A stretch of 64,000 nt of DNA, from NCBI RefSeq assembly GCF_022865125.1, contig NZ_CP094828.1:4395219-4459218 (forward strand), given 5' to 3'. Under the pieces are notes generated by a model. It did no database searches, had not been told where the DNA came from, and was given only the letters and a program-made list of their open reading frames with translations. Source of the DNA: Acuticoccus sp. I52.16.1 (GTDB taxonomy: Bacteria; Pseudomonadota; Alphaproteobacteria; Rhizobiales; Amorphaceae). Shown in pieces: positions 6,298-19,667 of the stretch; position 1 is the stretch's first letter, and each line of letters opens with the position of its first letter. Both the position numbers and the translations under genes were made by a program.

Positions 6298-7290
6298 TCA
6301 GCCGGAGAGCGACTCGGTCAGCGAGGGCTGAACCGTGCGTGCGTCGCGCAGGGCGCGGGGGAGGGCGAACTCGATCGATTCGTCCGCGGTTCGGGAAGTG
6401 GTCACCTTGATGTCGAACGCCTCTGCAAAGCGGTCCAGCACCTCCTCGACCAGCGCTTCCGGAGCGGAAGCGCCAGCGGAGATGCCCAAAGTCTTGATGC
6501 CGGCGAAGTGCTTCAGGTCGATCTCGGCGGCACGCTGGATGAGCTTTGCATTCCGGCAACCGGCCCGCAAGGCGACTTCGCGCAGCCGCTGCGAGTTCGA
6601 CGAGTTGGGGGCGCCGACGATGATCATCGCGTCGCAGTCCGAGGCGACGGCCTTCACTGCCTCCTGCCGGTTGGTGGTGGCGTAGCAGATGTCGTCCTTG
6701 TGCGGGCCGACGATCGACGGAAAACGCTCGCCCAGGGCGGCGACGATGTCGCGCGTGTCGTCCACAGAAAGCGTCGTCTGACTGATCCAGGCGAGGTTGT
6801 CCGGGTTCTGCGGCGCGAGCTTGACCACGTCGCGCACGGTCTCCACCAGGGTCACCGCGCCGTCGGGCAGCTGGCCCATGGTGCCGACCACCTCCGGATG
6901 GCCCGCGTGGCCGATGAGGATGATCTCGCGCCCGCGCTTGAAGTGGATCTCGGCTTCCTTGTGCACCTTGGAGACGAGCGGGCAGGTCGCGTCGAGGAAG
7001 AAGAAGTTGCGCGCGGCCGCATCCGCCTTGACGTCCTTGGGGACCCCGTGGGCCGAGAAGATGACCGGACGGTCGTCCTCCTCGATCTCCTCGAGTTCCT
7101 CGACGAAGACGGCGCCTTTCTCTTCGAGGGATGTGACAACGTAGCGGTTGTGCACGATCTCGTGGCGGACGTAGACAGGGGCCCCGAACTTCTCGAGCGC
7201 GATCTCCACGATCTGAATCGCCCGATCGACGCCCGCGCAGAAGCCGCGGGGCGCGCACAGGACGACGTTGAGGTTGGCACGCTCGGTCAT
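6298..7290 (-). CDS. ispH: 4-hydroxy-3-methylbut-2-enyl diphosphate reductase
   Basis: Last enzyme of the MEP isoprenoid pathway, a [4Fe-4S] protein that turns HMBPP into IPP and DMAPP. The three cluster cysteines are visible in [19 protein letters not shown] and V-A-S-D-C-D-A; catalytic T-Q-T-x-class residues appear in I-S-Q-T-T-L-S, and E-I-V-H-N and S-A-H-G-V-P substrate motifs are present. ATG 7290 (MTERANL) gives 330 residues; the frame runs on to 7857 but that part has no similarity and overlaps the divergent lipoprotein gene. First gene of the ispH-thrB(-rnhA) cluster. Confidence 0.96.
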
Positions 7291-7419
7291 CACGGCGTCA
7301 CTCCGCATTTGATTGGCGATCACGAACGTCATACAGGAGCGATGCGCGACGGAGTCAAGGAGCGCGGGCATATGGAGTGCAATCGACGCGACGCGTCGCA
7401 TCGAGGGTCGGGGCCGCGG

Positions 7420-7971
7420 ATGGCGTATCGAGTGACGGCAGCGTTGGCGATGATCGCCGCGCTGAGCCTGGCCGGCTGCGGCAACAGCAGCGTGAACGAT
7501 GCGGTCGGCGGAGTGACCTCGCTGCTCAACGTCGGCGGTGGACCGGAGCAGAAGCCGGAGCCGACGCCGGCGTCCGTGCCGCAGAACAGCGCCAAGTGCC
7601 CCGGCGTCTACGTCTTGCCCGATACCGAGGTCGTGCGGCGCGAGGCCGCGGGCGGGGGTGACGACGCGTTGCAGTGGCAGGCCTCCATCACCAAGACCGC
7701 GCGCGAGTGCGCGCCGAGCGGGACCGGCATGCGGGTGCGCGTCGGTGTCGCGGGGCGGATCGTGCGCGGGCCGAAGGGTGGGGGCACGCGCTCGATTTCG
7801 CTGCCGCTGCGGGTCGCCGTACGCGAGGGGAACGACACCACCTACAGCAAGGTCCACACCGTCGACGTCCAGTTCGACGGGCCATCCAAGGACTGGGCCT
7901 TCGTCGACGAGAACGTCACCGTCTCGGAGACCCGCCAGACGCAGATCTTCGTCGGCTTCGACACCAAATAG
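7420..7971 (+). CDS. Putative outer-envelope lipoprotein of unknown function
   Basis: A 183-residue protein with a lipoprotein signal: a short basic start MAYRV, a hydrophobic stretch, and the lipobox L-A-G-C at residues 18-21 with cleavage before Cys21. The mature part begins with a Gly/Asn/Ser/Pro-rich tether and includes two further cysteines (K-C-P-G and R-E-C-A) that may form a disulfide. The rest is beta-rich with a phrase V-Q-F-D-G-P that fits a small immunoglobulin-like or beta-sandwich fold. The ATG at 7372 in the same frame would precede the signal peptide with 16 charged residues and is less likely. Divergent from ispH. I do not recognise a function. Confidence 0.8.
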
Positions 7972-7977
7972 GCGGAC

Positions 7978-8895
7978 TCAGCGGCGCGGGCGGTGGAACG
8001 CGCCGATCGAGATGAGCAGCCCCAGCACCACCACCGCGATCCCCAGGACCTGCACCGGCCCCGGCCACTCGCCGGTGATCGGTACGCCGATGAGGATCGC
8101 CAAGCCGGGCACCAGCGCCGGGAAGGCCGAGACGCGCCCGGCGCCGATGAGCTGCGCGGCGCGGGTGAACGTCACCGTGGCGACGACCGCGGCGAGCACC
8201 CCCTGCACCGCCAGCTGGCTGAGGAGATTGGGCAGCGGCAGCGCGGCGAGGCGGTCGAACGACTGCGTGGCGAGGTAGTAGGGGACGAACACCGCGCTGG
8301 AGAGCACCGCGATGATCGCCGCCGCGGCGATCGGCGGGGTGGCCCATTTCTTCGCCAGGACGGTGAACAGCGCCCAGCAGCTGCCGGCGGTGAAGAACAG
8401 CATATCGCCGATGAAGGCGTGCGTGCCGCCGCTGAAGAGCGTCGGTCCCGCAACCAGCGCCAGACCGGAGATGATCACGGCCATCCCCAGGATGTGGATC
8501 GGCCGCACGGATTCACCCAGCACCAGTGCCCCCAGCACCAGCCCGGAGACGATGAGCCCGGACGGCTGGAACACCGCACCGTGCGCGAGCGGGGCGAAAT
8601 AGTAGCCGCCGACCGCCAGGTACATGAAGCCGGGGCCCAGCACGAGCGTCATGACGAGCCCGCGCCGCCAGCCGACCCCGGCGAGCCGCGCCGGGTCGTG
8701 GCGCAGCAACCACGGCAGCAGGATCAGCGCCGCCGGGCCGAAACGCAGCAGAGTCAGGTCCGCCATCGTCAGCCCCGAGGCGGTGCCGTAGCGGTTCATG
8801 GCGAGGTAGGCGCCCCATATGGCGACGGTGACGAGGCCGAGGGCGATGCCCGCTTGTTGGTCCGTCAACGTCCGGGGGGTGGCGATGACGGACAT
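7978..8895 (-). CDS. EamA/DMT-family transporter, 10 predicted membrane helices
   Basis: A 305-residue drug/metabolite-superfamily inner-membrane transporter (RhaT/YdcZ-like), with two repeats of five helices each. The first repeat runs from G-I-A-L-G-L-V-T-V-A-I-W-G-A-Y to about residue 145, with the E-S-V-R-P loop just before the second repeat; the second includes G-D-M-L-F-F-T-A-G-S-C-W-A-L-F and ends with V-P-I-T-G-E-W-P-G-P-V-Q-V-L-G, the usual EamA end motif. GAGGAG lies upstream of ATG 8895; the frame goes on to 9066 without support. Members export amino acids or metabolites; the substrate cannot be read. Convergent with the lipoprotein gene, with a 6-base gap. Confidence 0.9.
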   Translation of the reverse strand: MSVIATPRTLTDQQAGIALGLVTVAIWGAYLAMNRYGTASGLTMADLTLLRFGPAALILLPWLLRHDPARLAGVGWRRGLVMTLVLGPGFMYLAVGGYYFAPLAHGAVFQPSGLIVSGLVLGALVLGESVRPIHILGMAVIISGLALVAGPTLFSGGTHAFIGDMLFFTAGSCWALFTVLAKKWATPPIAAAAIIAVLSSAVFVPYYLATQSFDRLAALPLPNLLSQLAVQGVLAAVVATVTFTRAAQLIGAGRVSAFPALVPGLAILIGVPITGEWPGPVQVLGIAVVVLGLLISIGAFHRPRR

Positions 8896-9091
8896 GCAGG
8901 CTCCTCGTCGGGTCGGCGCGGGGCGCGACGATCGCCGCGAATATGTGTGATGGCACAGAATAGGGCGGCCGAACACCGCGCCCCCCCGGGATGCCGCCAC
9001 GCGCTGGGAGCGGGGCGGGGCGCGCCCTTGCCCGCGCCCGCACCGGGGTGTGACAGTGACCCGCACGAGAGACCAAGGGAGACGCCTGAGC

Positions 9092-9556
9092 GTGGCTCAT
9101 TCCGAGATCGACGGCGACGCCGTCCGCGCCCGCATCGACACCGCGCTGGCCGAGCAGGCGCCGGGTTTCGAGACCTTCTTCCTGGCGCGGCTCCTGGGGG
9201 CGACGTTCACCTATCTGCCGCAGGGCGTGCCGGCGGGAGAGGTCGAGGCCTGCCGCGTGCGGTTCCGGGTCGAGCCGTTCATGTTCAACCCGCAGGGGAC
9301 GCTGCACGGCGGCATCGTCGCCACGGCGATGGACATCTCCATGGGCCACCTCCTGAACAAGGCGACCGGCGCGACGGGGACCGCCACGATCGAGATGAAG
9401 ACGCAATATATGCGCCCGGTGGGGCCGGGCCTCGCGACGGCGGAGGGACGATTTCTGCGTCGCGGCCGCACCATGTGCTTCCTGGAGAGCCGGTTGACGG
9501 ACGAGGAAGGGCGGCTGTGCGCCCACGCCACCTCGACCTGGAAGCTGCCCGGCTGA
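9092..9556 (+). CDS. PaaI-type hotdog-fold acyl-CoA thioesterase
   Basis: A hotdog thioesterase that hydrolyses acyl- or aryl-CoA in the cytosol. The core motif is F-N-P-Q-G-T-L-H-G-G-I-V-A-T-A-M-D, in which the H-G-G turn and the following Asp define the PaaI/YbgC catalytic geometry; T-I-E-M-K-T-Q-Y-M-R-P-V-G-P-G is the conserved edge strand. The start is uncertain: GTG at 9092 has AAGGGA 11 bases upstream and gives 154 residues, while GTG at 9050 would add 14 residues. Divergent from the EamA gene and convergent with the VOC gene. Natural substrate unknown. Confidence 0.85.
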   Translation: MAHSEIDGDAVRARIDTALAEQAPGFETFFLARLLGATFTYLPQGVPAGEVEACRVRFRVEPFMFNPQGTLHGGIVATAMDISMGHLLNKATGATGTATIEMKTQYMRPVGPGLATAEGRFLRRGRTMCFLESRLTDEEGRLCAHATSTWKLPG

Positions 9557-9574
9557 CCCGGCGCGAGGGCCGGC

Positions 9575-10408
9575 CTACGCGGCGACGAGGACCTGCGTGC
9601 CCCACGGATCGGCGAGGACGATGCCCTCGTCCACCCGTTCGACCGGGATGCCGGCCTTGTCCGCGCGGGCGGCGATCGGCTCCGGCGCGTCGATCGCGGT
9701 GAAGGTGACCCGGGCGAGGCCGGTGGTGCCGATCGGCCGCGCCCCCGCGCCGCGGCTCGCCCAGATGTTCGTTCCGAGGTGGTGGTGGTAGCGCCCGGCA
9801 CCGTAGAACATCGCACCGGAATAATGCGATGCGGTCACCGGCAGCCCCAGCACCTCGCCGTAGAAGGCCCGCGCCGCGCCCAATTCGCCCACGCGCAGGT
9901 GGACGTGGCCGACGATCGTGCCCGCCGGCGCCCCCTGCCACGGCGCCTTGGCGCGACCGGCGATCCCCTCGAAATCCATCGGATCGTTGACGAACTGGAC
10001 CTCGCCGTCCTTCCACGGCCAGGTCTCGCGCGGCCGGTCGGCGTAGATCTCGATGCCGTTGCCCTCCGGGTCGGAGAGGTAGACGGCGTCGCTCACCGCA
10101 TGGTCGGCCGCGCCATCGAGCCGGTAGCGCCGCCCGGCGGCGAAGTGCAGCCAGGCCCCGAGGTCGGCGTGCGAGGGGAGGAGGAAAGCGGTGTGGAAGA
10201 GACCCGGGAAGCGGGGCTGACCGATGGTGACCGCCGGGTCCGCGACCAGCTCCAGGAGAGCCGCCCCGTCGACCCCGAGGTGCGCCACGCCCGCCGCCTC
10301 GTCGAGGACGCGCAAACCGACGACGTCGACGTAGAAGTCGCGCACCTTGGCGAGGTCCTTGACCGTCAGCGTGATGGAGCGGACCCCGTCGATCGCCCCC
10401 GCGCTCAT
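9575..10408 (-). CDS. VOC-family protein, two-domain extradiol-dioxygenase-like
   Basis: A 277-residue protein made of two vicinal-oxygen-chelate domains (about 1-125 and 140-277). The first begins I-T-L-T-V-K-D-L-A-K-V-R-D-F-Y and has D-P-E-G-N-G-I-E-I-Y-A-D at its end; the second begins V-G-H-V-H-L-R-V-G-E-L and holds the Y-H-H-H-L-G-T-N-I-W-A-S block, close to CatE-type catechol 2,3-dioxygenases of Firmicutes and to YwbC-like proteins. The two histidines and the Glu of the first domain could bind Fe(II), but the typical end glutamate of domain two is not clear, so catalysis is uncertain. ATGA overlap with the upstream acyl-CoA synthetase indicates coupling. Confidence 0.85.
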   Translation of the reverse strand: MSAGAIDGVRSITLTVKDLAKVRDFYVDVVGLRVLDEAAGVAHLGVDGAALLELVADPAVTIGQPRFPGLFHTAFLLPSHADLGAWLHFAAGRRYRLDGAADHAVSDAVYLSDPEGNGIEIYADRPRETWPWKDGEVQFVNDPMDFEGIAGRAKAPWQGAPAGTIVGHVHLRVGELGAARAFYGEVLGLPVTASHYSGAMFYGAGRYHHHLGTNIWASRGAGARPIGTTGLARVTFTAIDAPEPIAARADKAGIPVERVDEGIVLADPWGTQVLVAA

Positions 10409-12725: not shown

Positions 12726-15700
12726 TCAGCGCTGGCCGACGAACGTGCCGGTCGCCTGCCATCCCGGCTCGGCGGCCGAGAAGGAGCCGATGATGCCCTG
12801 CGCCTTCATCTCCGGTCCGTCGACGAACGCCCCGGAGACGCTGCCGTACAGCGTCGGGAACTCGGCGTTGGCGGCGTAGTCCGAGCCGCCGAGCGAGCCG
12901 CTGAACTGGTTGAGCGCGGACTGCGTCTCGTTCATGCCGACACCGCCGCCGAAGTCCCGGCCGTCGAAGTTGGAGAACTGGATGCTGCCGGCCCGCTCGC
13001 CGAAGTCGAAGTCCATGTGGACGTCGCCGACGGCGATATAGCGCGCGGTGCCCGTCTCGGTTTCGGCCGCGACGTTGCCGACGGCGTGACCGTCGAACGT
13101 GGCCGAGCCGGTGGTCGGGATGTCGACCTGGCGGGTGACGTCGCCGGCGGCCCAGGTGCCCAGATGGACGAAGTCGCGCCGCGTCTCCCCGTCGCCCGTT
13201 TCGGTGTCGGTCTGGGTGCCCCACCATCCCCATTCGAGGAAGGCGCATTCGCACTCCGTCACGCCCGCGTCGGCGAAGAGCTGCGGCTGCGGGGTGAGGG
13301 TCGAGGGGATCATGTACGTCGCCGGGCTCTGGTCGGCGACCTGGCGGGCCACCTGGCCGCCGTCGAGCGTCATCTGCGTGTCGGGGCTGCCGGGCTCGTT
13401 GTTGTAGCCGGCCTCGATGGCGCCGTAGGTGTCGTGGTCGACGTAGGTCTCGGTCGTCGTCGAGCCGCGCACCAGCGCAATGGAGGCCTCCACCTGGCCG
13501 GTGACGTCCGCGCGCTGCGACAGGTCCACCGTGCCGAGGCCGAACGGGACCTGGTAGCGCGCCACCGGGTCTTCGCTCTCGTTGACGTCGTCGACGATGA
13601 TGACGCCGCCGATGCCGGACTTCTGCACCAGCGTCTGCAACACGAACTGGCCGACCTCGGTGGAGCGCATCGCCACCGGGGCGCCGTCGTCCGGCTCCAG
13701 CATGCCGGCGGCGAAGCCCTCGAACTGGCCCACGACCCGGTCGAACGCGGTGACCGGCGTCTGCGATGCGAGGTTGGCGAGGACGCCGGTGCCGCTGATC
13801 AGCTCGTTGTCCTTCAGGAATCCGCCGCTCTCGGGCTGCACGTCGACGAAGCCGACGACCGGCTCGCGTAGCGGCACGACGGTGTCGTCGGCGTAGGGCT
13901 CGTCGTCCGACAGCACCGTGCCGGGGACGATGGCGAAGGTCTCGCCGTTGCGGCCGTAAATCGTCTGCGGCTTGCCGTCGACGATGAAGTCGGCGCTACC
14001 GAGCGCGCCGGTCATCGCCGAGGGGGCGAAGTCGGACGAGGTGCGGTAGGTGCCGCGGCGCGAGCCGATGGCGAAGAGGCCGGCATCGTCGATATCGTCG
14101 AAGGTGCCGCTGACGAAGCCGACGCCGACCGAGACGACCGACCGCTGATCGACGCCGGACCCGTTGATGACCATGCCCGCCTGCAAGGTACCGGGCTGCT
14201 CCTGGAAGTCGTCCGCGTCGACCATGTAGAGGTCGGTGGTGCTCGCCGAGAGCAGCGAGCGGCCGAATTCCCGCGCGATCAGCGGGTTCAGGTACGGAAG
14301 CTGCGAGTTGAGATCCTGGTTGTCCCACTGCGGGTTGGAGCCGATCTCGTAAGTGCGCACCAGCGGCGCGCGCTCGCCCTCCTCGGGGAAGAAGACGCCG
14401 GCCGGGGTCGCGACGCCGCCGTAGCCGGTGAACATCACCTGCTCGAAGGCGCCGTCCGGCCGGTCGGGTTGCAGGTAGTAGAGCACGAACCCGTCGGCGC
14501 GGCGGTACATGACCCCGCGTGTGGGCTCCGATTCGCCCTCCTCGTTCACGTTGAAGCCCAGGGTGTTGGACTCGAGGCGGAAGCGGAAGTCGCCTTCCGC
14601 CTCGTCGTAAGGGAGGCGCGTGCCGCTGTCGGTGCGGATGCCGGTGATCGTGCCGTCGTCGTCGCGGATGTAGGTGAAGGTCTCGCCGAGCGGGTAATTG
14701 GCGAGCAGCGTCAGGCCGCCGTAGTCCACCTCCTCGCCGGGGATGCCGGGCGTGAGGGGGCTGAAGCCGGGCGTGCGGGCCGCGCGCAGCGGGAACTCGT
14801 CCTCCGGCGGGGGCGGCGGAGGCGGGGGCGGCGGAGGAGGAGGAGGCGGGGGCGGAGGCGGCGGTGGGGGCGGCGGCTCGGGCTGATTGCCGACGTCGTC
14901 GCGGATCTCGTCGCCCGCCGCCTGCTCGACGATGGTGGTCTGGATCTCGTTGGTGGCGCTGACGATGCCGACCTCTTCCACCTCCGGTGCCATGCTGCTG
15001 CGCACGATCTGCGGCCGCGGTCGCGGCAAGACGGTCAGCGGCGCCAGCTCGGAGTTCATGTCGGGGATGAGGCTGGCGACCACCTGCTCGTTGGTCGGCC
15101 GTGAGCGGGCGCCGCCATTCTTGCCCGGCCGGCCCGAGAGGCGCCCCTGAAGGGTCGACTGGTCGAGCAGGGAGGTGGGAACCGTTTCGACCCGCACCCC
15201 GGCGCCGGTGCCGAAGAATGCGAAGGAGTAGCCGTTCTTGTAGATGCGGCCGCGCGGACCGCCGCCGTTCGGGTTGAGGACGATCTCGTCGCCGAACACC
15301 AGCGAGGCGGTCGCCGAGGGGCAGCGTCCGTCCGTCATGCAGCCGGGCTCGAGGTCGATGTTGACGATCGCGCCGCGCACGCCGAGCGTGCCGACGGGCG
15401 TGCCGAAGCGCACCTGCCCGCCCTGCTTGGACAGCCTGCCGCCCACGAAGCGCAGCGCGCCCTGGGTCACCTCGGCCGCCAGCGAGCCGCCGGAGGAGGC
15501 GGGATTGTAGACGAACTCGTCGATCACCACGCGCGAGTTGGAGGCGATGGTGAAGGCCGACCCGTCCACGAACATGATCTGCGCCAGCCCGTCGGACGAG
15601 GTGACGACGCGGTCCTGGTAGAGGATGTTGTCGCCGATGACGACGGTGCGGCGCCCGGCGATCCGCTCGACGTCGGTGTTCTGGTTGACCGCGGTGGTCA

Positions 15701-15821
15701 CGCCGATGCGGTCCTGCGCGGCGCCGGGCGAGGCGGTCCACAGGGGCGCGAGCGCGGTCGTCGCGAGGGCGGTGGCGGCCAGGAGGCCGAGACGCGCGGG
15801 GGTCATGGTCTTCGCCATCAT
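12726..15821 (-). CDS. Secreted FecR-domain protein with poly-proline linker and TbpB-like C-terminal barrel; probable Slam cargo
   Basis: 1031 residues. A Sec signal peptide (hydrophobic A/L/T-rich, cut near S-P-G-A-A-Q) has no lipobox cysteine. Residues about 55-170 form a FecR domain (V-I-G-D-N-I-L-Y-Q-D-R-V, D-G-S-A-F-T-I-A, T-P-V-G-T-L-G-V-R-G). Then a disordered stretch and 24 consecutive prolines (residues 316-339; DNA 14805-14876), a large beta-rich middle part, and at the end a stretch that resembles the beta-barrel lobe of transferrin-binding-protein B and other Slam substrates, ending G-I-I-G-S-F-S-A-A-E-P-G and T-G-T-F-V-G-Q-R. Its start overlaps the stop of the Slam-like gene (TGATG), so the two are translationally coupled. 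The C-terminal assignment is by eye and moderate; the FecR domain is clear. A surface or secreted ligand-binding protein is the likely role. Confidence 0.85.
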   Translation of the reverse strand: MMAKTMTPARLGLLAATALATTALAPLWTASPGAAQDRIGVTTAVNQNTDVERIAGRRTVVIGDNILYQDRVVTSSDGLAQIMFVDGSAFTIASNSRVVIDEFVYNPASSGGSLAAEVTQGALRFVGGRLSKQGGQVRFGTPVGTLGVRGAIVNIDLEPGCMTDGRCPSATASLVFGDEIVLNPNGGGPRGRIYKNGYSFAFFGTGAGVRVETVPTSLLDQSTLQGRLSGRPGKNGGARSRPTNEQVVASLIPDMNSELAPLTVLPRPRPQIVRSSMAPEVEEVGIVSATNEIQTTIVEQAAGDEIRDDVGNQPEPPPPPPPPPPPPPPPPPPPPPPPPEDEFPLRAARTPGFSPLTPGIPGEEVDYGGLTLLANYPLGETFTYIRDDDGTITGIRTDSGTRLPYDEAEGDFRFRLESNTLGFNVNEEGESEPTRGVMYRRADGFVLYYLQPDRPDGAFEQVMFTGYGGVATPAGVFFPEEGERAPLVRTYEIGSNPQWDNQDLNSQLPYLNPLIAREFGRSLLSASTTDLYMVDADDFQEQPGTLQAGMVINGSGVDQRSVVSVGVGFVSGTFDDIDDAGLFAIGSRRGTYRTSSDFAPSAMTGALGSADFIVDGKPQTIYGRNGETFAIVPGTVLSDDEPYADDTVVPLREPVVGFVDVQPESGGFLKDNELISGTGVLANLASQTPVTAFDRVVGQFEGFAAGMLEPDDGAPVAMRSTEVGQFVLQTLVQKSGIGGVIIVDDVNESEDPVARYQVPFGLGTVDLSQRADVTGQVEASIALVRGSTTTETYVDHDTYGAIEAGYNNEPGSPDTQMTLDGGQVARQVADQSPATYMIPSTLTPQPQLFADAGVTECECAFLEWGWWGTQTDTETGDGETRRDFVHLGTWAAGDVTRQVDIPTTGSATFDGHAVGNVAAETETGTARYIAVGDVHMDFDFGERAGSIQFSNFDGRDFGGGVGMNETQSALNQFSGSLGGSDYAANAEFPTLYGSVSGAFVDGPEMKAQGIIGSFSAAEPGWQATGTFVGQR

Positions 15822-17203
15822 CAGAACCTTTTGGAGAGCCCGAGCGTGAAGATTGCGTTGGTATATTCGCGCGTGTCGTAGTTGGACGCTTGGTGGCGGA
15901 TCTGGCCAGTGAGGAAGGCCGAGAAGTTGTTCTCGATCGGCACCGAGACGCCGGCCTCGGCCCAGAAGGCGTAGTCGTCTTCGGTGGAGTTGGGGTCGAT
16001 CAGCGGGTCCGGACCCCAGTAGCCGCGCCACAAGGTGCCGCCCGTCAGCGACAGCGCCCACGGCACCCCCTGGTCGAGCGGGCCGTAGCCGGGGCCGAAG
16101 AAGCGGTAGGTGACATTGCCGACGAGCGACAGCTCGGCGAAGCTCTTGAAGTCGTCGCGCGCGTCGACGATGCGCGAGCCGGCGGCGAGCGAGGTGATCC
16201 ACTGCGGCGACCACAGTCCCGTCAGCCGGGCCGAGCCGCGATACTCCTCACCCGTCTGTAGCCGGACGGTGGGGTAATATTGCGAGTTGTCGTAGTTGAG
16301 CGCGCGCACCTCGGCCCGCCCGTCGTAGAGCAGGTTGCCCATCAGCTTGCTCTGGAAGCGCACGCCGCCGCCGTAGGTGCTGGAGTAGATCGAGTGCCCG
16401 AGCGCATTGGCGCCGAGGATGCCGTAGACGCCGATGCGCGCCTCGTCGAGACCCACCCGGCCGAGCCCGAACGAGGGGCCGATCTGCGCCTCGATCAGGT
16501 TGAGGTCGAGCCGGCGCATGTCGCCGAAGACGCTGTTGTAGTTGGTGATGTCGGCCTCGATGAGGTCGCCCTGGTTGCGCAGGTCGTAGGAGAAGTGCGC
16601 CCGCGCCAGCGAGAAGACGTTCCAGTCGCCGGCCGCCCGCGCGTCCTGGTTCAAGACCACCGGGATGCCGTTCACGGTGATCGTATCGTCGCCCGGCGCG
16701 GCGTTGGCGTTGGTCTGGTACTGGATGCCGCCGACCACCTGGCCGGAGACGTAGAACCGCCGGTCCTGCGCGTCGATCTGGCCGAGGAAGCTCTGCACGC
16801 GCTCGCGGACCGGGGCCGGGATGTTGGGCTGTGCGGCGACGGCCTCGAGGTAGCTGCGCGCCATCTCGCGCGCGCCGATGCGGTAGTACAGCACTCCGAG
16901 TTCGAGCTGCACGCGTGGCAGGTTCGGCGCGAAGACGAGAATGCGCTCGAGGGTCGCGATCGCACCCTCGTAGTCGCCGAGCTGGGCGGAGACGAGCGCA
17001 TACTCGAAGGCGACGTCGAGGTTGTCGGGATCGTTCAGCGTGGCGAGGAAGAGCTGGTCGCGCCGGGCCTCCAGCGAGCTCGGCCCCGTGGACGACTGCG
17101 CCCATCCCGTGCCCGCGAGCGCGACCACGACGAAGAGCGACAGGACACCACGAAGCAGGGCTCCGCGTGCTGTTCGGCGGCGCACCGTCGACATGCGGGC
17201 CAT
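15821..17203 (-). CDS. Slam-like outer-membrane protein: TPR domain plus DUF560 beta-barrel
   Basis: 460 residues. A signal peptide ends near G-T-G-W-A-Q. Residues about 45-145 hold TPR-like helices (N-L-D-V-A-F-E-Y-A-L-V-S-A-Q-L-G-D-Y-E-G-A-I, then L-E-L-G-V-L-Y-Y-R-I-G-A-R-E-M-A-R). From R-F-Y-V-S-G-Q-V-V-G-G-I-Q-Y-Q-T-N-A-N onward alternating beta-strands continue to a terminal Phe (L-G-L-S-K-R-F), the signature of a BAM-inserted barrel. This layout, periplasmic TPR followed by barrel, is that of surface lipoprotein assembly modifiers (Slam), which move TbpB-like proteins to the cell surface. The next gene encodes a plausible cargo. The true start could be ATG 17203 or the internal ATG three codons later. 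Divergent from the CHASE2 cyclase, with 166 bases between them. Confidence 0.88.
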   Translation of the reverse strand: MARMSTVRRRTARGALLRGVLSLFVVVALAGTGWAQSSTGPSSLEARRDQLFLATLNDPDNLDVAFEYALVSAQLGDYEGAIATLERILVFAPNLPRVQLELGVLYYRIGAREMARSYLEAVAAQPNIPAPVRERVQSFLGQIDAQDRRFYVSGQVVGGIQYQTNANAAPGDDTITVNGIPVVLNQDARAAGDWNVFSLARAHFSYDLRNQGDLIEADITNYNSVFGDMRRLDLNLIEAQIGPSFGLGRVGLDEARIGVYGILGANALGHSIYSSTYGGGVRFQSKLMGNLLYDGRAEVRALNYDNSQYYPTVRLQTGEEYRGSARLTGLWSPQWITSLAAGSRIVDARDDFKSFAELSLVGNVTYRFFGPGYGPLDQGVPWALSLTGGTLWRGYWGPDPLIDPNSTEDDYAFWAEAGVSVPIENNFSAFLTGQIRHQASNYDTREYTNAIFTLGLSKRF

Positions 17204-17369
17204 GGACCAACCTCTTCGTCAGAAACAGACATAAGGATGCAAATTGATACAGCCGAACTTGACACAGTGCTGGCATGATCACATCGGTCCATGGGGGCCG
17301 ATTCTGCGTTCTTCCGGCGTGTGTCGCGTCTCGGCAACAATTTTGAGATGACGGCGGGGTGGCGGGTCG

Positions 17370-19667
17370 ATGGAACGCACCGGCGAGGGGGGCGGCTCCG
17401 GTCCGCAAGCCCTGAAACAGCGCCGCCTGCGCCCCACTCGGTGGCGCCGGCTGCTGCGCCGCGTGGCACCGCTGACCCTGATCACGTTCGCCCTCATCGT
17501 GACCGGCATTCTCGTCAGGGTCGAGAACTTCGCCGCCTTGCAGCGGTTGCGGACGATCGTGTTCGATGAGTACCAGAACCTCCACCCGCGGCAGTATGAC
17601 CTCGATGCCCCCGTGCGCATCATCGCCATCGACGAGGAATCCCTCGACCGGCTCGGCCAATGGCCCTGGCCGCGCAGCCGCGTCGCCGATCTGGTCGACC
17701 GGCTGACCGAGATGGGCGCCGCCGCGATCGGCCTCGACATCCTGTTCGCCGAGGCGGACCGCATGTCGCCCGACAATATCGCCCGCCTGATGCCCGAGGG
17801 GCCGGAGCGCGAGCGTGTCGCCGCGGCGCTACAGGGCGTGCCGCGGGGCGACGATATGCTGGCCGTCTCGCTCCAGAATGCGCCGGCGGTGGTGGGCGTC
17901 CTGCTGGAGGCGGGGGCGGGGCCGGGGGTCGACGCGCCGCAGGCCGACCGCGGCTTCACCGATCCCAAGGCCGGGTTCGCCTTCGCCGGGGACCCGCCCG
18001 ACCAGTTCCTCCCCCACTTCGGCCGGATCAACGGGCCGCTTCCGGGCTTGGCGCAGGCCGCCCTCGGCCTCGGCGCGCTCAACTGGCTGCCGGGTACGGA
18101 CCAGATCGTGCGCACCGTACCGCTGCTCTTCCATGCCGAGGACGGCGTCTACATGCCCGGTCTCGCGGCCGAGACGCTGCGCGTCGCGCAGCAGGCCTCC
18201 GGCTTCGTGGTGCGCTCCTCCAACGCCAGCGGGCAGACCTCGTTCGGCGCTCACACCGGCATCAACGCGGTCAAGATCGGCGCCTTCGCCGTGCCGACGA
18301 CCCGCGACGGCAGCGTGCTGATGCACTACACCCCGCACGAAGCGGCGCGCCTGATCCCCGCCTGGTGGGTGCTGGAGGGGCTCGTCGACCCGGACGAGAT
18401 CGCCGGGCGCATCATCCTCGTCGGCGCGACGGCGACGGGGCTGTTCGACCTTCAGGCGACGCCGATCGACGTCGCGATCCCCGGCATCGAGATCAACGCC
18501 CAGCTCATCGAGCAGATCGTCGAAGGGGTGTGGTTGGAGCGGCCGGACTGGGCGGAGGGGCTGGAGCTCGTCGTCTTCATCGTGCTGGCGGTCCTGTTCG
18601 GCTTCGTCTCGGGGCTCTTCTCGCCGCAGACGGCGGTGCTGGTGGGGGTGGCGACCATCGGCCTCGTCTTCGCCGGCAGCTACGCCGCTTTCGTGCGTGC
18701 GGGGCTCTTCCTCGACCCGTCCTACCCGTCACTCGCCAGCGCGGTGACCCTGTTCGCGACGACGGCATGGGTCGCCGTGCGCGAGCGGAGGGACCGGCGC
18801 TGGGTGCGCGACGCCTTCAGCCGCTACGTCTCGCGCGACGTGGTGGAGAACCTGGCGCAAGACCCCGCCCGGCTGACGCTCGGCGGCGAGATGCGCCCGA
18901 TGACGATCCTCTTCACGGACATTCGCGGCTTCACCACCATCGGCGAGACGATGGACGCCCAGGCGCTGACCGCCTACCTCAACGCCTTCCTGACAGAGAT
19001 GACGGGCGTCATCCTCGCCCACCGCGGCACGATCGACAAATATATGGGCGATGCCATCATGGCGTTCTGGAACGCGCCGCTGGACGACTTCGCCCACGCC
19101 GCCCACGCCTGCGAGACCGCGCTCCACATGCTCGACGCGCTGGAGGCGTTCAACGCGCGCTCGGGTGGGGCGCTGCCGGAGACGGCCATCGGCATCGGCC
19201 TCAACACCGGCGTGTGCTGCGTCGGCAACCTGGGCGCCAGCCAGCGGTTCGACTATTCGGTGATCGGCGACGACGTGAACATCGCCTCGCGCCTGGAGAG
19301 CCAGACGAAGACCTACGGGCTGCCGATCCTCGTCGGTCCGAGGACGGCCGAGCAGGCGCGTCCCGCCGGCTATCTCTTCGCCCTGGTGGATAAGGTGAAG
19401 GTGAAGGGAAAGACCGAGGCGATCGACGTCTTCGGCCTCATCGGCGGCCCCAACCACCCGCCGTCGCATCAGCTGGAGATGACCGCCAAGGGGATCGACA
19501 TCCTCGCCGAGGCCGCCCAGGACGGAGACGTCGAGCGCATGAAGGCGGCGCTGGACGCCATCGGCCACACCGAGCCCTGCGTGCTCGACACCGTCGTCGC
19601 GATGTATCGCCGGCGCTACGAGCGGCTGACCCGCACCGGCATCGACGATATCGCCGCGACCGACTGA
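17370..19667 (+). CDS. Class III adenylate/guanylate cyclase with extracytoplasmic CHASE2 sensor
   Basis: 765 residues. TM helix about 33-49, then a periplasmic CHASE2 domain (about 50-385; D-A-P-V-R-I-I-A-I-D-E-E-S-L, R-L-G-Q-W-P-W-P-R, A-I-G-L-D-I-L-F-A-E), then three closely spaced TM helices (about 399-470), and a cyclase domain (about 505-690). Catalytic features are intact: metal Asp in L-F-T-D-I-R-G-F-T (D517) and D-K-Y-M-G-D-A (D561, with K557 at the adenine-selecting site), and the I-G-D-D-V-N-I-A-S-R-L-E segment giving the specificity Asp and the N637/R641 transition-state residues. The Lys/Asp pair favours cAMP as product. Start codon ATG 17370; the hydrophobic parts begin soon after. 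Divergent from the Slam-like/FecR operon, suggesting a shared stimulus. Confidence 0.93.
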   Translation: MERTGEGGGSGPQALKQRRLRPTRWRRLLRRVAPLTLITFALIVTGILVRVENFAALQRLRTIVFDEYQNLHPRQYDLDAPVRIIAIDEESLDRLGQWPWPRSRVADLVDRLTEMGAAAIGLDILFAEADRMSPDNIARLMPEGPERERVAAALQGVPRGDDMLAVSLQNAPAVVGVLLEAGAGPGVDAPQADRGFTDPKAGFAFAGDPPDQFLPHFGRINGPLPGLAQAALGLGALNWLPGTDQIVRTVPLLFHAEDGVYMPGLAAETLRVAQQASGFVVRSSNASGQTSFGAHTGINAVKIGAFAVPTTRDGSVLMHYTPHEAARLIPAWWVLEGLVDPDEIAGRIILVGATATGLFDLQATPIDVAIPGIEINAQLIEQIVEGVWLERPDWAEGLELVVFIVLAVLFGFVSGLFSPQTAVLVGVATIGLVFAGSYAAFVRAGLFLDPSYPSLASAVTLFATTAWVAVRERRDRRWVRDAFSRYVSRDVVENLAQDPARLTLGGEMRPMTILFTDIRGFTTIGETMDAQALTAYLNAFLTEMTGVILAHRGTIDKYMGDAIMAFWNAPLDDFAHAAHACETALHMLDALEAFNARSGGALPETAIGIGLNTGVCCVGNLGASQRFDYSVIGDDVNIASRLESQTKTYGLPILVGPRTAEQARPAGYLFALVDKVKVKGKTEAIDVFGLIGGPNHPPSHQLEMTAKGIDILAEAAQDGDVERMKAALDAIGHTEPCVLDTVVAMYRRRYERLTRTGIDDIAATD

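Follow-up and report, generated by a model that had tools for sequence, protein, structure and literature searches.

Although CHASE2 is widespread as an extracytoplasmic sensor domain, few of its inputs are known. The same view is taken in the accessible part of a report describing a Burkholderia CHASE2 histidine kinase with LysM-FecR (PMC5192318), and the available text on Campylobacterota describes clusters combining a CHASE2 cyclase with a FecR outer-membrane protein, a TPR protein and a phosphodiesterase (PMC9239204). For S. meliloti, the accessible sections of PMC7529298 describe NsrA and CyaK as required for responding to an outside protein signal, place the NsrA barrel at residues 600-1200 and hold surface exposure in NsrA to be limited to this barrel, and according to the available part of a further paper CHASE2 cyclases raise cAMP on a plant protein sensed via NsrA (PMC13001267). 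We found nsrA (1200 aa) overlapping cyaK on pSymB and identified FecR (E 2.3e-15) and TPRs in NsrA by a domain search. Another FecR gene of S. meliloti, smc02177, located near cyaD1-clr, is described in the part of PMC5498481 available as being cAMP/Clr-induced, with signal perception being independent of it.

Proteins of the T11SS network are 14-stranded barrels in the available text of PMC8406197. About ten T11SS cargo architectures have been described, none being called FecR in the accessible portion of PMC12282271, and the main texts of both papers contain no mention of FecR or of a cyclase. A Lysobacter cluster encodes Slam and its TbpB-like cargo together with an RpoE-type sigma factor, a separate FecR regulator and a TonB-dependent transporter (PMC11233812, available in part), so that a FecR gene beside Slam can also stand for iron control of the ordinary sigma/anti-sigma type. 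The accessible part of a further paper containing the terms FecR and 'Slam-dependent' merely lists gene names (PMC12075148). Within the library of papers searched, to which this statement is confined, a T11SS cargo headed by FecR is nowhere described; in the initial annotation of the locus analysed here, a FecR module on the outside of a Slam cargo is likewise not known to have been described.

Architecture of the three-gene locus

We analysed a stretch of 64,000 nucleotides from Acuticoccus sp. I52.16.1, referred to as the window. On its minus strand, it encodes a Slam-like outer-membrane protein of 460 aa with TPRs and a barrel (15821-17203), followed on the same strand by a FecR-TbpB-like exported protein of 1031 aa (12726-15821), the ATG of which has one base in common with the TGA of the upstream Slam-like gene. 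A divergent intergenic region of 166 bp (17204-17369) separates the Slam-like gene from a plus-strand gene for a CHASE2 class III adenylate/guanylate cyclase of 765 aa (17370-19667), identified by domain matches and catalytic motifs. The translational coupling and the divergent cyclase 166 bp away, both claimed in the initial annotation, are thereby confirmed. A Pfam-type domain scan of three flanking genes identified an acyl-CoA synthetase, a glyoxalase-family protein and a solute-binding protein, and none of these three is a sigma factor, a TonB receptor or a metal/haem uptake gene. The glyoxalase-family gene (9575-10408) lies a few kb from the Slam-like/FecR-TbpB pair; according to the accessible text of PMC12282271, glyoxalase genes are found together with marine cluster-3 T11SS, and the proximity is perhaps a coincidence.

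The element AACTTGACA within the 166-bp region is common to three of the five Acuticoccus loci compared, and no match to a sigma-70 consensus is present in these 166 bp. The best Clr-like site in the region has two mismatches, with 17 such sites across the 64 kb, and the best CRP-like site has three, with 50 such sites, both consensus patterns being taken as general knowledge; neither the 166 bp nor four relatives contain a CRP/Clr-type box that exceeds background. We dropped a cAMP-receptor box between the divergent genes, as equally good sites are frequent in the 64 kb.

The Slam-like protein is composed of a signal sequence, TPR helices at about residues 43-147 (TPR_19, E 1.4e-7) and a 14-strand β-barrel at residues 150-459. 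Its AlphaFold model (mean pLDDT 87.2) shows helices followed by 14 long strands, i.e. the N-terminal TPR and 14-strand barrel arrangement of a T11SS outer-membrane protein. Foldseek searches with the barrel model returned BcsC, FadL and porins as top matches, polysaccharide channels and porins ranking first, and no solved Slam structure was found among the matches listed (50 for the barrel model, 32 for a profile search). PF04575 (SlipAM/DUF560) has no match in the window protein and, with E limited to 0.1, matches nine of the 31 family members aligned, the best at 4.1e-5, this alignment (A3) being built without split or partial genes (L046, L049, L072) and without the FecR-only type. Of the Slam-type/DUF560 protein claimed initially, the TPRs and the 14-strand barrel thus stand in the predicted structure, whereas its sequence supports a DUF560/PF04575 identity only weakly.

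The FecR-TbpB protein carries a FecR/cell-surface-signalling domain at residues 67-231 (15129-15623, minus strand) directly behind an N-terminal hydrophobic segment, a disordered linker at residues 231-381 (14679-15131, minus strand; pLDDT mostly below 50 at 230-379) with a run of 24 prolines and, in the predicted structure, a TbpB C-lobe-like handle and barrel at residues 698-1031 (12729-13730, minus strand). Structure comparison of the AlphaFold model assigns the N-terminal domain to the FecR/PupR signalling-domain fold and the C-terminal lobe to the TbpB/NHBA/fHbp type, in line with the initial proposal of a FecR domain at the front and a TbpB-type barrel lobe at the end. With an export signal, assigned by visual inspection of the N-terminal sequences, and this predicted C-terminal barrel, the protein has the features of a T11SS cargo. 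In contrast, a cytoplasmic part and a transmembrane helix ahead of the FecR domain, as in an anti-sigma regulator, are not present, and no transmembrane-like or strongly hydrophobic stretch follows residue 45; for lack of a cytoplasmic part we rejected a canonical FecR anti-sigma role.

We aligned 29 full-length relatives (A4), not including the shorter or partial L029, L048 (569 aa), L072 (542 aa), L073 (557 aa), L079, L080, L058 and L059, or L122 and L123. The relatives match slam_lipo in 24, FHBP_C in 19 and TbpB_B_D in nine cases, a lipobox-like motif is present in none of the 29, and the linker spans 92-174 aa in all of them. The linker is proline-rich in Acuticoccus, though not in every relative; long proline runs occur in only some of the relatives, and we dropped poly-proline as a conserved device for this reason. 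Both cysteines of a CxC at residues 857/859 are kept in 29/29 relatives, accompanied by the invariant alignment columns W864, G865, W867, H886 and W890. The resulting CxC ... WGxW ... H ... W motif (residues 857-890; 13150-13253, minus strand), found in the 29 aligned relatives, is a possible metal, haem or disulphide site. Two Acuticoccus genomes encode a second Slam-like pair of a TPR-barrel protein and a protein of 637-640 aa that is TbpB-like at its end (L058:1218-7180 and L059:3642-9676) and from which the CxC is missing by eye. In L058, the latter protein has a FecR match under the cut-off (19.6 bits). Ahead of both pairs, a protein of 847-848 aa containing a Crp-type HTH is encoded, which shows a weak cNMP-binding match in L058.

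The cyclase (17370-19667, plus strand) contains a CHASE2 domain at residues 47-408 and a class III catalytic domain at residues 510-684, in which the motifs FTDIRGF, DKYMGD and DDVNIASR are all present; hydrophobic windows begin at about residues 31, 392, 415 and 430. Its putative product is cAMP.

Recurrence of the gene set and of FecR-CHASE2 pairing

The locus is real and recurs in several families and gene orders. In 24 of the 29 full-length relatives the FecR-TbpB gene lies directly behind a TPR-barrel frame, with gaps of -37 to +50 bp, this frame being broken in L049 and cut by the contig start in L046. Another FecR or FecR-TbpB gene lies between the two in four relatives (L048, L069, L072 with a broken TPR-barrel frame, and L073), and the remaining FecR-TbpB gene (L077) is located at a contig end, the TPR-barrel gene being in the same cluster for the other 28. 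A CHASE2 cyclase lies in the same stretch in 13 of the 29 FecR-TbpB loci and is absent from the stretch examined in the other 16, two of which (L046 and L075) are contigs of less than 7.4 kb. The cyclase is divergent in five Acuticoccus loci, convergent in L070 and co-directional in L028 (Aureimonas), L074, L076, L077, L078 and L081, in the last four of which FecR-TbpB and cyclase frames overlap. Further co-directional operons are present on plasmid p1 of Shinella sp. H4-D48 and on plasmid pAMI5 of Paracoccus aminophilus (Rhodobacterales), the latter operon being divergent from a cNMP-binding patatin gene. In Jiella (L029), likewise co-directional, the examined stretch covers the FecR-TbpB end and the cyclase only, and in L049, one of the 13 loci, a protein with Ion_trans and cNMP_binding domains, of the cyclic-nucleotide-gated channel type, is encoded between FecR-TbpB and cyclase (L049:4822-5988). 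Azospirillum thermophilum encodes a TPR-barrel protein and a FecR protein of about 298 aa with no cyclase in the stretch. The variation between divergent, co-directional and convergent order argues for selection acting on the gene set.

On a 41-row TPR-barrel tree built without the near copies L063, L065, L067, L078 and L081, linkage to a cyclase takes three changes to explain. Mantel correlations between the three gene trees amount to 0.90-0.96 for 13 loci and 0.58-0.82 for eight loci (one per genus, except for two Acuticoccus), carrying little weight because shared species history explains them equally. Searching 398 genomes of the phylum, we found full-length FecR-TbpB only in the order of Acuticoccus and FecR-only matches reaching beyond it, both among the matches listed. 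In other members of the phylum, the same search showed open frames reaching 19,352 aa that begin with a FecR-like head, and giant surface proteins may therefore commonly use this module.

Pairing of FecR with CHASE2 is widespread and not special to the window locus. Across 51 genomes of the order, a FecR domain lies within 6 kb of 34 of 63 CHASE2 genes versus 0.47 expected from uniform placement, refuting a chance neighbourhood; this count covers 63 of the 68 CHASE2 genes and all 81 FecR matches, and the own genome of the window supplies two of the 34. A sample of CHASE2 neighbourhoods, comprising every fourth row of the first 125 matches listed (32 rows), contains FecR in at least 20 of the 28 counted (L082-L109), the window, L026, L043 and row 85 at a contig edge being left uncounted, as were L110-L121, chosen because FecR was already known nearby. 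Six of these 20 were missed by our own FecR profile and recovered by wider seeds plus Pfam (five) or by a Pfam search (L107).

The own genome contains two CHASE2 and two FecR genes, which are paired up. Its other CHASE2 cyclase adjoins a 207-aa FecR gene (L060, C1:4564000-4578000), and a cNMP-binding domain is encoded upstream of its CHASE2 domain at a distance of about 0.4 kb. The FecR neighbours of CHASE2 vary from small proteins to large adhesins and FecR-TPR proteins. FecR-headed cadherin/Big/VWA/RTX-type adhesins lie directly beside CHASE2 cyclases in L055 (the same place as L082), L056 and L092, and NsrA-like FecR-TPR proteins of 1252-1308 aa are encoded near CHASE2 in L101 and L099. In L121, a TPR-barrel gene and a CHASE2 cyclase flank three tandem FecR genes (7213-9642), and NHLP-type bacteriocin export genes adjoin FecR-CHASE2 cyclase loci on Shinella and Ensifer plasmids (L122, L126).

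A possible relay from the outer to the inner membrane

The FecR domain of the window protein structurally resembles 5ix9 (listed as cell surface anchoring domain, antifreeze protein), which we take to be a Marinomonas adhesin, and this likeness together with the FecR/PupR match favours a periplasmic FecR domain. By sequence, the likeness to a retention module is weak: NF033682 scores 14.9 bits against a cut-off of 50 in the window member and, with E limited to 0.1, matches 20 of the 29 relatives, the best at 7e-5. A position of FecR on the outside, as assumed in the initial annotation, is unlikely for three reasons stated in the available portions of the papers cited: in E. coli, FecR uses this domain to contact FecA on its periplasmic side (PMC5498481), the N-terminal retention domain of LapA-type adhesins is periplasmic with the remainder spanning an outer-membrane channel (PMC6890996), and surface exposure in NsrA is ascribed to the barrel alone (PMC7529298). 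We thus infer that the FecR domain is retained in the periplasm and that the linker is probably long enough to pass the pore. Release of the LapD/LapG type was dropped as a candidate, since a LapG-type protease (PF06035, Peptidase_C93) has no match at E up to 0.001 in the own genome, which is 97% complete; a double alanine in Acuticoccus, a possible LapG site, is by eye not kept in the relatives.

As NsrA and CyaK are both needed for the outside signal, the combination of FecR, TPR, barrel and CHASE2 represents an experimentally supported relay, which by analogy lends the initial idea of a surface sensor or binder reporting to cAMP a precedent (PMC7529298, accessible part). We tentatively favour, at somewhat less than even confidence, a model according to which the three genes form one outer-to-inner-membrane signalling relay of a split NsrA-CyaK kind. 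According to this model, the Slam-like TPR-barrel protein in the outer membrane would handle the FecR-TbpB protein as cargo, and the TbpB-like lobe would be displayed at or through the Slam-like barrel, binding an outside ligand, while the long disordered linker would let the FecR domain remain periplasmic like a LapA-type retention module. Ligand binding would alter the contact of FecR with the CHASE2 domain of the divergent cyclase, and this altered contact would in turn change the cAMP output. In favour of such a relay we count the predicted folds, the gene linkage in its varying order, the FecR-CHASE2 excess and the NsrA-CyaK precedent, as well as the putative cAMP-type effectors encoded beside relatives, i.e. 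the channel-like gene of L049 and the Paracoccus patatin gene. Weighing against it are the 16 loci with no cyclase in the stretch examined, the dispensability of smc02177 for perception, the narrow profile match to NsrA, the weak retention-module similarity with no LapG-type protease match in the own genome, the FecR-only loci having a TPR-barrel protein but lacking the lobe, and the Lysobacter cluster with its separate FecR regulator. A bolder version, which we regard as possible but doubtful, sees a half-secreted receptor at a Slam-type (T11SS) pore, with the lobe outside, the linker threading the pore and a periplasmic FecR switching the CHASE2 cyclase; FecR would then be a general periplasmic plug-and-signal head serving several outer-membrane routes, namely Slam in the window, type I secretion for the cadherin/RTX-type adhesins and the fused barrel in NsrA, all read by CHASE2 enzymes.

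Alternatively, the cyclase could sense alone via CHASE2, the FecR-TbpB protein and its Slam-like partner being an exported effector whose expression or activity is under the cAMP pathway. The 166-bp control region common to the divergent genes fits this reading, but no CRP/Clr-like site stands above background there or in the four relatives with the patterns used. The precedents diverge in the available texts: smc02177, a FecR gene beside cyaD1-clr, is activated by Clr and dispensable for perception (PMC5498481), whereas NsrA, a FecR protein adjoining cyaK, is needed for it (PMC7529298). With the overlapping co-directional frames of L076, L077, L078 and L081 fitting stoichiometric partners better, we consider an exported effector unlikely. 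Lower still we place the possibility that the Slam-like barrel is an NsrA-like receptor and no secretor, with FecR-TbpB being wholly periplasmic, its lobe docked to the barrel protein from the inner side and FecR to CHASE2. TPR-barrel, FecR and CHASE2 loci without a TbpB-like lobe do exist, and in such loci the barrel need not be a secretor; the polysaccharide channels and porins leading the Foldseek matches, the absence of a PF04575 match in the window protein and the NsrA barrel as sole part said to be surface-exposed (PMC7529298, in part) point the same way. The slam_lipo, FHBP_C and TbpB_B_D matches among the relatives and the SlipAM matches in the TPR-barrel family speak against it, as does the TPR-barrel gene in the cluster of every FecR-TbpB gene except the one at a contig end.

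That the whole FecR-TbpB protein is a soluble secreted T11SS cargo, i.e. a haemophore-like binder with FecR as extra binding module and a merely regulatory link to the cyclase, is improbable. T11SS cargo, both known and predicted, may lack lipidation and have such a barrel at its end (accessible text of PMC12282271), agreeing with the lack of lipobox-like motifs, but FecR and retention-type domains of known proteins are periplasmic in the available parts of PMC5498481 and PMC6890996, the CHASE2 linkage is recurrent and the three scanned flanking genes are unrelated to metal or haem uptake. Chance neighbours would explain the 16 FecR-TbpB loci without a cyclase in the stretch examined, but this explanation has a close to negligible probability given the FecR-CHASE2 excess over expectation, the three gene orders and the operons on two other named replicons. 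If the relay exists, T11SS would serve in signalling as well as in nutrient capture and adhesion, and an outside protein signal would have a route across both membranes towards an increase in cAMP. Should CHASE2 usually be partnered by FecR-bearing outer-membrane or surface proteins, as the clustering suggests, many orphan cyclases and kinases would gain a candidate receptor.

Comparison with known systems

The FecI-FecR-FecA system shares the FecR/PupR signalling-domain fold with the window protein, which differs in having no room for a cytoplasmic anti-sigma part and no second hydrophobic helix, and the three flanking genes scanned are neither sigma factor nor TonB receptor. The Lysobacter cluster likewise unites a FecR protein, a TbpB-like Slam cargo and Slam, but there FecR is separate beside an RpoE-type sigma factor, and the accessible text contains neither a FecR-cargo fusion nor a cyclase or CHASE2. 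LapA-type adhesins resemble the window protein in their N-terminal periplasmic module, and CHASE2 cyclases also have FecR-headed adhesins of the cadherin/VWA/RTX type as neighbours; the LapA-type adhesins differ in type I secretion and LapG/LapD control (PMC6890996, available part), no LapG being found in the own genome. The Campylobacterota and Burkholderia clusters share a FecR protein beside a CHASE2 sensor, whereas a TbpB-like lobe and a Slam-like partner are unreported there in the text available.

The window locus resembles T11SS/Slam in that a protein with TPRs and a 14-strand barrel is coupled in translation to an exported one ending in a TbpB/NHBA/fHbp-type lobe. In contrast to T11SS/Slam, PF04575 is weak in the window family, and the window cargo has an N-terminal FecR domain, a 150-aa linker, no lipid anchor and a cyclase partner. 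Like the NsrA-CyaK locus, the window encodes FecR, TPRs, an outer-membrane barrel and a CHASE2 cyclase side by side; NsrA is a single polypeptide, whereas in the window these modules are split over separate TPR-barrel and FecR proteins, the latter carrying a TbpB-like lobe in addition. Profile alignment of NsrA with the TPR-barrel family covers 60 TPR columns only, and the FecR domains of NsrA and of the FecR-TbpB family compare at E 0.023. Direct barrel homology with NsrA was not found by profile comparison, and the narrow match together with this E value suggests that the shared architecture may be a convergent assembly. The kinship is thus known at the level of shared domain types, and by analogy the window is best read as a split NsrA-CyaK-like relay to which a Slam-type cargo has been added.
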